Source: Alphaproteobacteria bacterium (GTDB taxonomy: Bacteria; Pseudomonadota; Alphaproteobacteria; Sphingomonadales; Emcibacteraceae). Taken from it: a stretch of 48,055 nucleotides of DNA. This document shows, in pieces, positions 11,746-19,374 of this stretch. The translations under genes were made by a program, and so were the position numbers. The notes beneath the pieces are model-generated. The model searched no databases. It was not told where the DNA came from and saw only the letters and a program-made list of their open reading frames with translations. The stretch's first letter is position 1. Every line of letters begins with the position of its first letter. The stretch is taken from positions 1 through 48,055 of the forward strand of contig JAADFR010000003.1 in assembly GCA_013152755.1 (NCBI GenBank), written 5' to 3'.

Positions 11746-12585
11746 TTAACCGGCTTTACGTACTTGGTCCGCATGATCAGCTGTAACATACATGCCGCGT
11801 TTTCCTGGCACGGGTTTGAATTTATCACTTAATCCCAGCACTGTTTCCGCCGCCCCGAGAAACAATGTCCCGTCAGCGGGTAATTGCCGCCGCAATCTGT
11901 CCAGAACCTGCGCCTTCGTATCCTGATGGAAATAAATCAACACATTACGGCAGAAAATCACATCAAATGTCCCAAGGGCCGCAAAACTATCCAAAAGATT
12001 AAACGGTTTATAAGTGACCATTTTTCGGATTTTTTCAGATATTTGCCACATCTCACCCGCCTGGGTAAAATATTTCATCAACAGCTTAATGGGTAATCCT
12101 CTTTGAACCTCAAATTGGGAATATATTCCGGCTCTGGCCTTATCCAAAACAGATCGAGACAGATCTGTGCCGACAATATCAATTTTCCACCCACTTAATT
12201 TAGCTTCCAACTCACTAAGAATAATCGCCAGAGAATAGGGCTCCTGTCCCGTCGATGCCGCCGCGCACCAAATGCGCAACCGCTTGGATGACGCGCGGGA
12301 CTGCAAAAGACCCGGCAATACATCTTCCCGAAACAAATCAAAAGGCGTATTATCCCGAAAAAAGAAAGACTCATTGGTCGTCATCGCATCGGTAATTTCA
12401 GACAAAAGATCTTCTTTGCGCCGTAACCTGACCTCATTGATCAAATCATCCAGCGTCTCCATGCCTTTTTTACGGGCAATTGGCGTCAATCGACTTTCCA
12501 GAAGATAGATTTTATCCTCTGATAATACCAGTCCTGACCTTTCTTTCAAGATCTTGCTGAGCAGCTCAAAATCTTCTTTTCTCAT
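11746..12585 (-). CDS. cheR: Chemotaxis methyltransferase CheR
   Basis: This 279-residue SAM-dependent enzyme methylates glutamates of chemoreceptors for adaptation. The N-terminal helical domain precedes a methyltransferase fold with WCAAASTGQEPYSLAI (SAM loop, about 106-121), GTDLSRSVLDKARAGIY (139-155) and FDVIFCRNVLIYF (207-219). TTNESFFFRD near 69-78 is also a CheR hallmark. It overlaps cheB by 4 bases and is the last gene of the che operon. Confidence 0.96.
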   Translation of the reverse strand: MRKEDFELLSKILKERSGLVLSEDKIYLLESRLTPIARKKGMETLDDLINEVRLRRKEDLLSEITDAMTTNESFFFRDNTPFDLFREDVLPGLLQSRASSKRLRIWCAAASTGQEPYSLAIILSELEAKLSGWKIDIVGTDLSRSVLDKARAGIYSQFEVQRGLPIKLLMKYFTQAGEMWQISEKIRKMVTYKPFNLLDSFAALGTFDVIFCRNVLIYFHQDTKAQVLDRLRRQLPADGTLFLGAAETVLGLSDKFKPVPGKRGMYVTADHADQVRKAG

Positions 12586-13733
12586 TGTGGCAGTCCCATC
12601 AATTTCTCTTTAATTTTTGATCCTATTTGATCCAAAGGATATATACCGCTGCATAGCCCCGCATTACTGACGGCCCCCGGCATCCCCCATACAACACTTG
12701 TTTCCTCATCCTGCGCGATCAATTTACCCCCCGCTTCCACCAATTCCCGGCTGGCATTCAGACCGTCATGGCCCATGCCCGTCAATATTACAGCAAAGAC
12801 TTCTGGTCCATATACCTTGGTCAGGCTCCTGAACATTGGTTCCACAGACGGACGACAAAAATTCTCGGGCGGCTCCTGATTAAGCGCAATGACTTTCCCG
12901 CCGCCTTTTTCCACGACGGTCAGATGAAAATCACCCGGCGCAATATAAACCTTGCCATTTTCAAGCCTGTCACCGTCTTCGGCTTCCTTACAGTCAAAAC
13001 CGGTTGATTGTGTCAAATGCTTCGCCAGAATACTGGTGAAAGTCGCTGGCATATGTTGCGTAATGACAACCGGAACATTCACAGAACCCAGATTTTTAAG
13101 GACAGTCAGCAAAGCCTGCGGCCCACCAGTGGAACTGCCTATAGCCAGAATGGAAGACTTGCCTCTGGAGAATTTACGCTTTTCAACAACTGGATTTGCC
13201 TTTGATAAGGGCGTAAATTGCTTGTCTATCAGGCTCTTTGCACCGTGAAAGACTTTACCACCATTTCTCAGGCGACTTGCTGCCGCAATGCTGATCACCT
13301 TGCTTATGAGTTCTTCCTGAAAACTCATGGAAGTTGCAACTTCACGATTACTGGTCGGCTTGGCGACATAATCAGAAGCTCCCATGGACAGGGCACGCAT
13401 ACTGATTTCTGCATTACGCCCCGTCAATGTCGAGGCCATAATAACCTTAACCTTTGGATCAATTTCAAAAAATTTCGGCAACGCGGTAAGCCCGTCCATT
13501 ACCGGCATTTCAATGTCGAGTATGATAATTTCCGGGTCAAACCTGGGCATACTCGTCAGTGCCATTTCGCCATTCCCGGCCGTACCGACGATCTGAATAG
13601 CAGGGTCTTCCGACAACCATTTGGACATAAGGCCCCGGATAACCGCTGAATCATCAACGATCATGACCCGATATTGCCCACTTCTAGCCACACGCCCCGT
13701 GTCCTCTTTATTTTTTAGATAATTTGACTGCAC
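12582..13733 (-). CDS. cheB: Chemotaxis methylesterase CheB
   Basis: This 383-residue protein has an N-terminal receiver (MIVDDSAVIRG, phospho-Asp73 in IIILDIEMPVMDG, Lys in YVAKP) joined by a linker of about 45 residues to the methylesterase. The catalytic triad is visible: Ser201 in IGSSTGGPQ, His227 in TQHMP and Asp323 in LTGMGHDG. It removes methyl groups from, or deamidates, chemoreceptors. It lies directly after the cheY stop and overlaps cheR by 4 bases. Confidence 0.96.
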   Translation of the reverse strand: MQSNYLKNKEDTGRVARSGQYRVMIVDDSAVIRGLMSKWLSEDPAIQIVGTAGNGEMALTSMPRFDPEIIILDIEMPVMDGLTALPKFFEIDPKVKVIMASTLTGRNAEISMRALSMGASDYVAKPTSNREVATSMSFQEELISKVISIAAASRLRNGGKVFHGAKSLIDKQFTPLSKANPVVEKRKFSRGKSSILAIGSSTGGPQALLTVLKNLGSVNVPVVITQHMPATFTSILAKHLTQSTGFDCKEAEDGDRLENGKVYIAPGDFHLTVVEKGGGKVIALNQEPPENFCRPSVEPMFRSLTKVYGPEVFAVILTGMGHDGLNASRELVEAGGKLIAQDEETSVVWGMPGAVSNAGLCSGIYPLDQIGSKIKEKLMGLPQ

Positions 13734-14099
13734 CTAGATTATTCCTACCTGAGAGAATTTTGATTCAATGATTTCACGGTCGAAGGGCTTCATAATATAT
13801 TCATCCGCCCCGGCGGATATGGCGGCGCTGATATGGCTCATATCATTTTCCGTGGTGCAGAAAACAACCACTGGCTTATCACCCCCCTCAGATGCCCGAA
13901 GGGCTTTAAGAAAATCTAATCCGTTCATTACCGGCATATTCCAATCCAGCAGAACAACATCCGGCAAGTCATTAAGACAGGAATCAAGAGCATCCTGGCC
14001 ATCAACTGCCTCTCTAATATCAAAATCAAGCTCCTCCAGAATACGGCGGGCCACTTTTCTGATTACTTTTGAATCATCTACGACAAGGCAGGATTTCAT
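13734..14099 (-). CDS. cheY: Single-domain response regulator, CheY-like
   Basis: This 121-residue receiver has no output domain. It contains Asp8-Asp9, phospho-acceptor Asp52 in VVLLDWNMPVMNG, Thr82/Thr83 and Lys104 in YIMKPF. Its place between cheW and cheB makes it the likely flagellar-motor output of CheA. Its stop directly abuts the cheB start. Alphaproteobacteria often have several CheY proteins, so which one binds FliM cannot be told from this window. Confidence 0.9.
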   Translation of the reverse strand: MKSCLVVDDSKVIRKVARRILEELDFDIREAVDGQDALDSCLNDLPDVVLLDWNMPVMNGLDFLKALRASEGGDKPVVVFCTTENDMSHISAAISAGADEYIMKPFDREIIESKFSQVGII

Positions 14100-14148: not shown

Positions 14149-14601
14149 TCAAGCAGCTTCTGCCTGCGTTTTTCCAAAATTCAATAATTTTTCCACATCA
14201 AGGATAACCATCAGTTCACCTTCCATGCGAAAAATACCGCTGGATACGTCTTGCCAGCATGGGTCCAATGTTACTGGATTACGCTCAAAAGAATCCTCGG
14301 AAAAGGACAGAACATCACCGACACCATCAATCAGAAGACTATAGGGTTCACCCTCATATTCGACAACGATGCTCATGTTTTCGCCGCCAGATTCCTTATC
14401 TTTCAGCCCTAATCGTTTTCTGAGGTTTATCGCAGTAACAATTCGGCCCCGAAGATTGAGCACGCCAGCAACGGCAGGCGGTGCAAGGGGAACTGACGTA
14501 ATAGTTTGTTCTGACAAGACGTCATGCACTTCCAGTACCGGAATACCGCACAGTTGGCCCGCTAGCCGTATTGTCACATAATCTTTATTATCATTTTCCA
14601 T
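14149..14601 (-). CDS. cheW: Chemotaxis coupling protein CheW
   Basis: This 150-residue protein is a single CheW domain that links chemoreceptors to CheA. Visible features are the early strand DYVTIRLAGQLCGIPVLEVHD, shown here as YVTIRLAGQLCGIPV, and VAGVLNLRGRIVTAINLRKR, the classical CheW core. The late strands PYSLLIDGVGDVLSF and ELMVILDVEKLL follow. It is 21 bases downstream of cheA in the same operon. Confidence 0.95.
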   Translation of the reverse strand: MENDNKDYVTIRLAGQLCGIPVLEVHDVLSEQTITSVPLAPPAVAGVLNLRGRIVTAINLRKRLGLKDKESGGENMSIVVEYEGEPYSLLIDGVGDVLSFSEDSFERNPVTLDPCWQDVSSGIFRMEGELMVILDVEKLLNFGKTQAEAA

Positions 14602-14622: not shown

Positions 14623-17600
14623 TTACGCCGCGTTCTTTTTCTTGCCAATCTGCTCGGTGATTGCACCCATCAGGTTATCCCGGTCCAGCTTAACCACATA
14701 ATCGTCAAATCCGACCTCTCGGCCCCGGGCAAAGTCTTTAGGTGTTTGATGAGAGGACAAGGCAATCAAAGGCGTTCTCTGCCAGATACCATTCTCGCGA
14801 ACCTGTTCGGCAAAGGTAAAGCCATCCATATCCGGCATTTCAATATCACTGATAATAATATCAAAATCTTCGCCCTGCTCACGCAATTCCAAGGCCGCAG
14901 CACCGCTATCCACAGCGGTAATCTTATAGCCCGCAGCAGATAGTAGCGGCTTGATCATATTCAGGAAGAACTTGCTGTCATCAACCAGTAGAATATTAGA
15001 TTGACTATGCAGTCCCGTATGGCCCGACGTGCTGGAAGACCCCAAGCTACCAAAGGCCTTTTCAATATAATAAGCCACATCAATGATTTCTGTAGCCTCA
15101 CCGTCTATCACGGCTGTACCGACCTGTCCGGCTATAGTGGATGACAATTCAATATCAATTTTATCCTCCATAATGTCGATAATCTCATCCACAGCAACGC
15201 CCATCGTCTTGTCGCCGTCCGTAAAGACAAGAACCGGCTGGCGGCCTTCCTGTTTCAACTCATATGAGGCGCTTACAGTCAGCAATGGCATGAGCTGTCC
15301 GCGATATTGAACAACAGGCTGACCATCGGCCTCCTCAATAGTGCTCACCTCAATTTCTTCCAAACGTGCTACCAAAGACAGAGGCACAGCCCGGCGACTG
15401 TCTTTACCAGCCCGGAACAGGAGAATAGCCTCATTGTCATTACGGGCTGCCGTCTGTTTTACGTCTTCTTCCATACCAAGACCGGAGGAATCAGTCACTT
15501 TATCGCTGATCTGGTTAACAATTCCATTAGGGTCAAGGATCATAATGACCTTGCCATCACCCAGAATGGTATTGCCAGAGAAAGTATGCAAATCTTTCAG
15601 GATTGGTGCAACGGGCTTGACCACAATTTCTTCCGTATCGAATACCTGATCAACCACAATGCCAAAGGTGAAAGTACCCACCTGACTAATGACAATATAA
15701 TCTTCTTTACGAGCTTCCTCGTCTTCCTCGGATTTATCCCCGGCCATACCGAGAATTTCGTCCAGTCGAACCAACGGCAGCAAACGGTCCCGCAGACGTA
15801 AAACAGGCGTATCATTGATATGCTCAATACTATGTTCGGAATCCTTGGAGGCCCGAACCAACTCCAGAACACTGATCTGGGGAATAGCGAATCTGTCATC
15901 ACCGCACTTAACGATCAGGGCAGATACAATGGCCAAGGTCAGTGGAATCTTGATGCTGAAACTTGTCCCCTTACCTTCAATTGATTTCAGGTCAACAGTA
16001 CCACCGATTTTTTCGATGTTACTACGCACCACATCCATACCAACGCCGCGACCGGACACAGCGGTAACTTTTTCTGCTGTTGAAAAACCCGCATGGAAAA
16101 TAAACCGCTGAATCTGATTGTCGGACATTGCGTCCAGCTCTTCCTGGGTCGCCAAATCGTTTTTCAGTGCTTTGGCTTTCAGCTTCTCAACCGGCAGGCC
16201 AGCGCCATCATCGGTAATTTCAATGATAATATGGCCGCCTTCATGGAACGCATTCAGGCGCACCGTGCCGGTTTCTTTCTTTCCTGCGGCAAGCCGGGCA
16301 TCCGGCATTTCGATACCGTGGTCTGCGGAGTTGCGCACCATATGGGTCAGCGGATCTTTAATCATTTCCAGAACCTGACGGTCAAGTTCCGTATCCGCCC
16401 CAAGCATCTGAAGGTCTATTTTCTTGCCAAGTTCCAGTTGCAAATCCCGGATGATCCGTGGCAGTTTTGCCCAGGCATTGCCCACCGGCTGCATACGGGT
16501 TTTCATAACCCCTTCCTGCAGTTCCGTTGTACATTGGCTAAGGCGTTGTAAGGGAATAGAAAATTCACTGTCATCGCTGTTGCGCAAAAGCTGCATGAGC
16601 TGATTTCTGGTCAGCACCAATTCGCTGACCATTGTCATCAGATCTTCCAGAACCTGTACATTCACCCGAATACTCTGGTTAGCAATACTTGGTTCCCCGG
16701 ATTTGGCATTAGCGGCCACTTTGTCTTTTTCGACCTTTTTACTCTGAGCTTTTTTGCTTACTTCCTCAAGGAACTGGTCGGAAATATCGTCATATTCCGC
16801 CAATACGGCGTCTGCCAGTAAAGGGGATAAATCCACCTCTTCCAACACAGACTCGAGCAATTTACGGACAGTTTTATTTTGTTCAACCGTGATGTTATGG
16901 GAAATAAATGGCGCAAAGGCGGCCTCTATGCTGGGGCCACTATTTTTATTATCTCCAAGATATGAAGTGAAGAAATCCCCCATTTTGGCCTTGCTGTCTC
17001 TTGTATTGACACCATCCATCAGGTTTTTTACAGAAGCATCGCCAAGAATCCGGTTATGGAAAAGATGAGTTATGACTTTTACCGCATCGGCACCACCAAT
17101 ACATTTGAACAGACTGTCACCTTCATCCTGAACGGCTGTCGCATCGTCATCGTCTTCATCATCCGGACCGGGGGCAGCAGCAAAAGCAGCCTCCAATTCC
17201 TCCAAGGACACCTGACCGGGCAAAATATTTTTCGATTGGGTAATTTCAGGCATCTCGATCACATCAGTTTCTGGTTCAGGCGCCGCAACAACGGCCTCTA
17301 CCGAACCGCCGCTGGCGACCACATTCAACTTTTGAATGATTTCGCTGTCATCACCCTGCGGCTCTTCCTGTGTTGCTTCAAGTCCGGCGAGGATTTCCTT
17401 GATCCGGTCAAGGGCAGACAGAATAAGTGTCACAGAATCAGACGTAACAACCAATTCACCGTCGCGGTATTTTCCCAAAACATTTTCACCGGCATGAGCC
17501 ACTGATTCCAGACGCGGCAATCCCAGAAATCCGCAAGTTCCTTTAATCGTATGAACAAGCCTGAAAATATTATCCAGAATAGGTTTGTTGGTTGGATCCT

Positions 17601-17682
17601 GTTCAAGGACCACCATCTCGGCATCAACTTCGTCGATGCTCTCCGCCGTTTCTGTGAGAAATTCGTTTAGCAAATCATCCAT
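14623..17682 (-). CDS. cheA: Hybrid chemotaxis kinase CheA with globin-like insert, two CheW modules and a receiver
   Basis: This 1019-residue kinase is far longer than the roughly 650-residue E. coli CheA. In order: an Hpt/P1 domain (1-105) with phospho-His44 in RLVHTIKGTCGFLG; an acidic linker; a segment at 188-308 with a truncated-hemoglobin pattern (LFKCIGG, LFHNRILGD, MDGVN, ISHNIT) in place of P2; dimerisation helices (335-400); and HATPase. The ATPase has the N box at Asn451, DDGAGL at 491 and GRGVGMD at 544. A P5/CheW-like module (580-730), a second CheW-like module (748-880) and a receiver (896-1012) with Asp946 and Lys998 complete it. The globin-like part lacks His at the proximal position (Phe256 or Phe259) and has His209 where TyrB10 is expected. 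The kinase core is intact. It begins the cheAWYBR series. Confidence 0.93.
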   Translation of the reverse strand: MDDLLNEFLTETAESIDEVDAEMVVLEQDPTNKPILDNIFRLVHTIKGTCGFLGLPRLESVAHAGENVLGKYRDGELVVTSDSVTLILSALDRIKEILAGLEATQEEPQGDDSEIIQKLNVVASGGSVEAVVAAPEPETDVIEMPEITQSKNILPGQVSLEELEAAFAAAPGPDDEDDDDATAVQDEGDSLFKCIGGADAVKVITHLFHNRILGDASVKNLMDGVNTRDSKAKMGDFFTSYLGDNKNSGPSIEAAFAPFISHNITVEQNKTVRKLLESVLEEVDLSPLLADAVLAEYDDISDQFLEEVSKKAQSKKVEKDKVAANAKSGEPSIANQSIRVNVQVLEDLMTMVSELVLTRNQLMQLLRNSDDSEFSIPLQRLSQCTTELQEGVMKTRMQPVGNAWAKLPRIIRDLQLELGKKIDLQMLGADTELDRQVLEMIKDPLTHMVRNSADHGIEMPDARLAAGKKETGTVRLNAFHEGGHIIIEITDDGAGLPVEKLKAKALKNDLATQEELDAMSDNQIQRFIFHAGFSTAEKVTAVSGRGVGMDVVRSNIEKIGGTVDLKSIEGKGTSFSIKIPLTLAIVSALIVKCGDDRFAIPQISVLELVRASKDSEHSIEHINDTPVLRLRDRLLPLVRLDEILGMAGDKSEEDEEARKEDYIVISQVGTFTFGIVVDQVFDTEEIVVKPVAPILKDLHTFSGNTILGDGKVIMILDPNGIVNQISDKVTDSSGLGMEEDVKQTAARNDNEAILLFRAGKDSRRAVPLSLVARLEEIEVSTIEEADGQPVVQYRGQLMPLLTVSASYELKQEGRQPVLVFTDGDKTMGVAVDEIIDIMEDKIDIELSSTIAGQVGTAVIDGEATEIIDVAYYIEKAFGSLGSSSTSGHTGLHSQSNILLVDDSKFFLNMIKPLLSAAGYKITAVDSGAAALELREQGEDFDIIISDIEMPDMDGFTFAEQVRENGIWQRTPLIALSSHQTPKDFARGREVGFDDYVVKLDRDNLMGAITEQIGKKKNAA

Positions 17683-17843: not shown

Positions 17844-18479
17844 TCATCGTTCCTCATAGGTCAGGGAAAGTGAAAAGCTTTGTTCATTATGCAATGAATA
17901 TTCTACTTTACTGCCAATTTTATTTGCCGCATTGGCCGCAAGAAATGCCGGAGCGGATTTTGCTTCGATATTATCCGCTGTAGTTTTTCCCAAGAGGGCC
18001 ATACGGATAGCTTCCTGAAAAATTACCTTGTCTCCAAGCACGGTCACCAAAACCGAAATAGAGGGTGATTGTTCTTTGATTTCCACCCGCAGGCTGCCTC
18101 CCCTGAACAGGCTTTCCCCGGCCAGCAATACCATATTCAGCATCACTTTCATGGCATTTTTATCCATGCCGCCCACATCAGAATGCCAGGAAAGTTCTAT
18201 ATTTCCAGCATCATACAGGCCTTTAATGGCATCTTCGGCTTCTCTGAGGGGGACTTTCTCGCCAAAACCGCCCGCTGCACCGAAAGACAGGCGGAAAAAT
18301 TTTAACTTGGCCGAAGTGACCTCTGCACTGTGATTAAGGAGCTTCATAACCTCCCCGCGCATATCCTCATCTTCTTCATCCACCAGAATTTCAAGGCCGT
18401 TGGCTATGGCCCCCACCGGGCTAATCAAATCATGGCAGAGCCTGGAACATAACAGGGCCGAAAAATCTACATCATTCAT
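17844..18479 (-). CDS. chpT: Histidine phosphotransferase ChpT
   Basis: ChpT is the dimeric phosphotransferase that passes phosphate from CckA to CtrA and CpdR. The start at 18479 gives 211 residues, MNDVDFSALLCSRLCHDL, with phospho-His16 in the helix LCHDLISPVGAIANGLEIL. This is the ChpT family signature (a DHp helix plus a degenerate ATPase fold). The longer in-frame ORF to 18578 has a non-conserved N-terminus and would run into the cysQ start. It precedes cheA by about 160 bases and is only 6 kb from ctrA. Confidence 0.9.
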   Translation of the reverse strand: MNDVDFSALLCSRLCHDLISPVGAIANGLEILVDEEDEDMRGEVMKLLNHSAEVTSAKLKFFRLSFGAAGGFGEKVPLREAEDAIKGLYDAGNIELSWHSDVGGMDKNAMKVMLNMVLLAGESLFRGGSLRVEIKEQSPSISVLVTVLGDKVIFQEAIRMALLGKTTADNIEAKSAPAFLAANAANKIGSKVEYSLHNEQSFSLSLTYEER

Positions 18480-18576
18480 GGGGACAGCTACTTTCTTTTC
18501 TATAATCTCAAAAAACCAGATTGAACATATAATAGCAAACTGATAATAACAAGGCCAACAACACAGGAAATTCAAC

Positions 18577-19374
18577 ATGACAAAATCGGCCAGCCCTTAC
18601 ACGCTTTTTTCCGAAAAATTATATGAAACCACATTGGAAGCAGGTCGAAAAATCATGGAGATATTTGCTCTTGATTTCGAGGTCAATTACAAGGGCGACA
18701 AATCGCCGGTAACTGCCGCCGATGAGGCCGCTGAAAAGATTATCCTGCGTGACCTTGCGGACATCGCCCCCCATATCCCGGTCATCGCCGAGGAACAGGC
18801 CAGTGCCGGGAATATTCCCGATGTCACCGATAAATTCTGGTTGGTGGACCCCCTCGACGGCACCAAGGAATTTGTCAAGAAGGGCACAGACTTTACCGTT
18901 AATATCGCCTTGATAGAAGATGGTCAGCCCAGCTTTGGCATTGTCTATGCCCCTGCCCTTGGCCGGATGTTTGTGGCCAAAGACCCCCAAACCGCCGTTC
19001 AAATGGATATTCGCGAAGGCCGTTTCATGGGCGCAGAAAGCCCCATCACCGTCCGCGATGTGCCGGAAAGCGGCATTGTCGCCGTGGCCAGCAAATCCCA
19101 CCGGGATGATCAGACCAATGCCTTTCTGGAAAAACTTGGCGTTACAAACATCGTCAGCGCCGGAAGTTCCCTGAAATTCTGCCTTGTTGCCGCCGGGGAA
19201 GCGGATATTTACCCGCGCTTTGGCCCGACTATGGAATGGGATACCGGAGCCGGACATGCGGTGCTGAATGCTGCCGGGGGCACCGTCGTCAACCCGGATG
19301 GAACGCCTTTCCGTTATCAGAAACCGGATTTCCGCAACGGCTTTTTCATCGCCAATGGCAAGGTAAAATATTAA
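18577..19374 (+). CDS. cysQ: 3'(2'),5'-bisphosphate nucleotidase CysQ
   Basis: This 265-residue inositol-monophosphatase-fold enzyme removes the 3' phosphate from PAP/PAPS, protecting sulfate assimilation. Metal-binding motifs are KSPVTAADEAAE, PVIAEEQA and WLVDPLDGTKEF (the DPxDGT motif), and GPTMEWDTGAGHAVL is the C-terminal metal motif. It is divergent from chpT. Its stop overlaps the stop of the LysE-type gene. Confidence 0.94.
   Translation: MTKSASPYTLFSEKLYETTLEAGRKIMEIFALDFEVNYKGDKSPVTAADEAAEKIILRDLADIAPHIPVIAEEQASAGNIPDVTDKFWLVDPLDGTKEFVKKGTDFTVNIALIEDGQPSFGIVYAPALGRMFVAKDPQTAVQMDIREGRFMGAESPITVRDVPESGIVAVASKSHRDDQTNAFLEKLGVTNIVSAGSSLKFCLVAAGEADIYPRFGPTMEWDTGAGHAVLNAAGGTVVNPDGTPFRYQKPDFRNGFFIANGKVKY

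Follow-up and report, generated by a model that had tools for sequence, protein, structure and literature searches.

Background

Globin-coupled sensors such as HemAT and AfGcHK carry a sensor-family globin N-terminal to their receptor or kinase part, and RsbR stressosome proteins contain non-heme globin domains. The main text of a genome-wide survey from 2023 describes the chemotaxis kinase CheA as lacking a sensor domain, lists P2/CheY-binding, CheY-like and CheC/CheX domains as its auxiliary domains, and states that P2 is absent from over half of all CheAs, the P1–P3 region then being unstructured in models (Berry, Andrianova & Zhulin 2023, PMC10782961). Neither "globin" nor "heme" occurs in that main text, and our search of the open-access literature returned no description of a globin inside CheA.

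Here we analysed a 48,055-nt stretch of an alphaproteobacterial genome of the family Emcibacteraceae (the window), in which profile matches and structural models identify a group-I truncated-hemoglobin (trHb1) domain at CheA residues 186–312, located between the P1 (Hpt) and P3 domains.

An F5-class CheA with a predicted truncated globin

The window encodes a complete set of F5 class features in its CheA, namely Hpt, H-kinase_dim, HATPase_c, two CheW domains and a receiver, as matched by Pfam and following the class features given in the main text of PMC10782961 (Table 1). The chpT-cheA-cheW-cheY-cheB order is unchanged in nearly all loci of the window's order, whether the globin insert is present or absent. 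A chpT-like gene adjoins cheA in nearly all relatives inspected.

Table 1. Features of the cheA locus, with positions in the window
Feature	Position	Strand	Basis
cheR	11746..12585	(-)	
cheB	12582..13733	(-)	
cheY	13734..14099	(-)	
cheW	14149..14601	(-)	
cheA, 1019 aa, F5-type, P1-linker-globin-P3-P4-CheW-CheW-REC	14623..17682	(-)	ORF, Pfam
C-terminal receiver domain, residues 897-1008	14659..14994	(-)	PF00072
First CheW-like domain, residues 588-724, matched in two stretches	15511..15921	(-)	PF01584
P4 HATPase_c, residues 443-582	15937..16356	(-)	PF02518
P3 dimerization domain (H-kinase_dim), residues 335-395	16498..16680	(-)	PF02895
Predicted group-I truncated-hemoglobin (trHb1) domain, residues 186-312	16747..17127	(-)	PF01152, AF2, Foldseek (1dlw/HbN TM 0.71-0.84)
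Phe256, proximal position F8 (heme trHb1: His)	16915..16917	(-)	HbN alignment
His209, globin position B10 (heme trHb1: Tyr)	17056..17058	(-)	HbN alignment
His206, globin position B7	17065..17067	(-)	HbN alignment
Linker motif PGQVSLEELEAAFAAAPGPDDE, residues 155-176, between P1 and globin	17155..17220	(-)	near-invariant in A2
P1/Hpt domain, residues 3-95	17398..17676	(-)	PF01627 E=3.8e-15
ChpT-like histidine phosphotransferase gene, upstream of cheA	17844..18578	(-)	PF10090 E=2.8e-21

A preliminary description of this DNA had proposed a trHb1-like domain at 16759–17121 (CheA residues 188–308), and all of the motifs that it quoted are present there. Profile searches bore the proposal out. Bac_globin (PF01152) matched residues 190–294 in a scan of the whole protein (E=2.7e-5) and exceeded its curated cut-off of 21 when the segment was searched alone (30.1 bits, E=5.9e-7); domains from 25 of 38 relatives matched it independently. 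Against PDB sequences, phmmer placed the cyanoglobin 2ksc at the top (E=2e-4), with M. tuberculosis HbN also first-ranked, and hhalign comparison with standalone alphaproteobacterial trHb1s gave a probability of 99.1% (E=1e-18) for window-type domains and 98.8% for the Kordiimonas-type set. NCBIfam yielded no relevant match to the globin domain.

The structure prediction and profile comparison suggested in that description gave a concordant picture. An AF2 model of residues 186–322, built from 38 order-level sequences, was all-helical (mean pLDDT 89.4, pTM 0.82), and its best Foldseek matches in the PDB were group-I truncated hemoglobins, including 1dlw, HbN and 3aq5 (E 1e-4 to 8e-4, TM about 0.7–0.84), with no P2 or Hpt domain at the top; residues 186–312 are thus predicted to adopt a 2-over-2 globin fold. 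A second model, of a diverged Kordiimonas-type domain, was similarly confident (pLDDT 91.4) and again best matched truncated hemoglobins, mostly at higher rmsd.

We considered whether the region is instead a P2, CheY-binding or second Hpt domain and rejected this, as Pfam gave no match to any of the three between P1 and P3. The suggestion that the globin lies where P2 normally does was not upheld: 0 of 10 globin-less orthologs had a P2/CheY-binding Pfam match, in line with the P2 statement in the main text of PMC10782961, and because P2 is undetectable at this place in F5 CheAs that lack the insert, the globin replaces none. An assembly or gene-fusion artefact was likewise rejected, since the same architecture recurs across dozens of independent assemblies, named type strains among them.

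Loss of the canonical heme ligands

Heme positions were assigned by alignment with a partly reconstructed sequence of M. tuberculosis HbN. On this alignment the reading of TyrB10 as His209 was confirmed, and of the two residues initially offered for the proximal histidine, Phe256 and Phe259, only the former falls at F8. The window domain therefore lacks both the proximal His and Tyr B10 of heme trHb1s, and it has Ser230 and Met234 at E7 and E11, where Gln/Leu is the heme trHb1 signature. Phe occupies F8 throughout the window's family; other members of the order have a shortened F region, and no sampled order member has an F8 His. The window CheA globin is therefore probably heme-free as judged from sequence. 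The earlier proposal of a heme-free docking or dimer module stands in its heme-free part, which fits the His-to-Phe change at F8 and the Tyr-to-His change at B10.

Heme might still be held by changed ligands, His206 (B7) and/or His209 (B10), making the domain a gas or redox sensor. His at B7 is near-invariant (31 of 32 aligned order sequences), at a position that is acidic in most tabulated heme trHb1s, and B10 is His in the window's family. However, the window residues at F8, E7 and E11 speak against heme binding, and outside that family, order members mostly have Ala or Ser at B10 and a shortened F region that offers no conserved replacement ligand, so that we regard this reading as very unlikely. 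His262 varies even inside the genus.

A rather unlikely alternative is that the heme-free pocket binds another small molecule, with CheA sensing a cytoplasmic metabolite. The fold is confidently predicted despite the lost heme ligands, and the globin domain of HemAT is reported to bind ethanol independently of its heme (PMC7542364); against this, Phe at F8 may fill the heme site.

Distribution and repeated loss within the order

A search of homologues for co-occurrence with CheA, as proposed at the outset, found the globin insert in 36 of 44 readable CheAs of the order (L001–L030 and L039–L044), with L031–L038 lacking it and L045, which runs into a contig edge, left out of the count. Named carriers include Emcibacter, Kordiimonas, Pseudokordiimonas, Rhodothalassium salexigens and Eilatimonas milleporae. 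One of the eight CheAs lacking the globin, L038, contains an insert about as long that shows no resemblance to globins. With the insert excluded, a tree of the CheA core puts losses at L031, L032, L033/L034 and L036, which would imply at least four losses in the order; it is a quick tree with SH-aLRT support only and is poorly resolved at depth. Because it has been lost repeatedly, the globin domain is dispensable, an accessory to the kinase.

The linker between P1 and the globin holds a motif, PGQVSLEELEAAFAAAPGPDD, found in 43 of 43 order CheA frames (one gene counted twice). Outside the order it occurs in 27 of 78 globin-less and 0 of 16 globin-bearing CheAs; all three counts use a loose pattern and ignore kinship. 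It is possibly a docking motif. Separately, the window's own genome has a globin gene elsewhere (L177, G000:C165:28116-28463), a 136-aa frame matching PF01152 at 39.9 bits.

Globins in CheAs of other alphaproteobacterial families

We asked whether the fusion is confined to the order, and a profile search of a class sample of 385 genomes ruled this out: trHb1s lie in the P1–P3 linker of orthologous CheAs from ten further alphaproteobacterial families. The preliminary statement that no CheA with such an insert is described holds for the open papers searched, and the insert is no one-off, being order-wide and present in other families. Bac_globin scored above its cut-off in nine of ten non-order CheAs tested with Pfam, L168 falling just below, and chpT and cheW adjoin most non-order globin-cheA genes where flanks permit. 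Two proteins carry a second trHb1 inside the first CheW (P5) domain (L157, residues 709–829; L164, residues 656–776).

Heme ligands differ among these CheAs. His at F8 is kept in L157, L158, L163, L164, L166, L170 and L174, and is joined by Tyr B10 in L158, L163, L166, L170, L174, both globins of L157 and the second globin of L164; F8 is Phe in two other lineages, L160/161 and L167–169. The L158 globin domain shares 53% identity with a protein of Methylocystis whose annotation is group 1 truncated hemoglobin. By sequence, the CheAs that keep both Tyr B10 and His F8 are candidates for chemotaxis kinases that sense O2/NO directly.

In a phylum sample of 398 genomes, every match in a CheA-length open frame came from Alphaproteobacteria; outside the class nearly all matches lay in short frames, with a few longer ones of up to 616 aa. 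Weak globin matches in the P1–P3 linker of L232 (residues 211–308) and L258 (residues 159–262) are possibly decayed globins. A different architecture was seen in L165 (G343:C127), a 955-aa open frame with an N-terminal trHb1 whose heme residues are intact, followed, by eye, by a run of four PAS-like repeats and the signalling domain of a chemoreceptor (MCP); L136 (G251:C18) resembles a fragment of an L165-like protein, its domains beyond the globin likewise assigned by eye.

Origin and selection

In a globin tree, the order's CheA domains form one clade (support 99/99), and CheA globins as a whole mostly cluster, but with open forks. Constraining all of them to one clade was not rejected (p-AU 0.49), and either a single ancient capture that was lost many times or recurrent capture at the same site is possible.

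Among relative pairs with domain dS < 1.5 (n=8), domain dN/dS was 0.04–0.14 for seven; the eighth, L168/L169, gave 0.45 and shows raised dN/dS in most CheA regions. Values for the globin were similar to those of the first linker and higher than those of P1 and P3–P5. The globin domain is thus under purifying selection, weaker than that on P1 or P3–P5, and given these comparisons and the L168/L169 value the constraint is not especially strong.

A reading of the insert as a relic in decay, or as nothing more than a spacer, would fit its loss at several places in the order and its faster evolution than P1 and P3–P5. Yet dN/dS is well below 1 in all measured pairs, the GG, His B7, Arg B12 and Glu282 positions are kept across the order, and two diverged members give confident globin models; we consider this explanation unlikely.

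Discussion

We lean towards reading residues 186–312 as a trHb1 that was captured by an F5 CheA, lost its heme and was kept as a heme-free, partner-binding regulatory module. On this reading, an ancestral F5 CheA would have acquired a heme-binding trHb1 in the flexible linker that joins P1, the phosphorylated domain, to the dimerization domain. After heme binding was lost in the window's lineage, the retained fold, tethered beside P1, would bind a partner protein, be it CheY/CheB, P1 or the second protomer, and thereby tune phosphotransfer from P1. From sequence and models together, the most likely role is that of a regulatory or docking module that holds no heme but descends from a heme sensor.

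Where Tyr B10 and His F8 persist, the domain probably binds heme, and CheA would answer O2 or NO directly. We tentatively extend this, at a little under an even chance, to a broader proposal: F5 CheAs captured a heme-binding trHb1 that made the kinase itself a direct O2/NO sensor bypassing chemoreceptors, and the window's order turned that domain into a heme-free regulatory module. With heme competence indicated by sequence in several lineages and heme ligands lost in others, a truncated globin in CheA would give the chemotaxis kinase an additional, direct input; CheA globins also offer a case of repeated heme-ligand loss within one protein family, and one conserved gene cluster provides natural with/without comparisons for finding the domain's job.

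Several known systems share parts of this arrangement. RsbR likewise keeps a globin fold without heme in a signalling protein, but belongs to another globin family and another system. Globin-coupled sensors (HemAT, AfGcHK) also couple a globin-family domain to chemotaxis or kinase output; theirs is an N-terminal sensor-globin or protoglobin, whereas the window has a truncated globin, matched by Pfam as Bac_globin, internal and in CheA itself. The F5-class CheA, as the main text of PMC10782961 presents it, has Hpt, H-kinase_dim, HATPase_c, two CheW and receiver domains in common with the window CheA, which has an extra predicted trHb1 between P1 and P3. The closest likeness is to the group-I truncated hemoglobins (PF01152; M. 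tuberculosis HbN, Paramecium Hb 1dlw, Synechococcus GlbN), with the same predicted fold, helix order, GG turn, length of ~120 aa and profile match; unlike them, the CheA domain is part of a 1019-aa chemotaxis kinase and, in the window CheA and its order, has lost the proximal His and Tyr B10.
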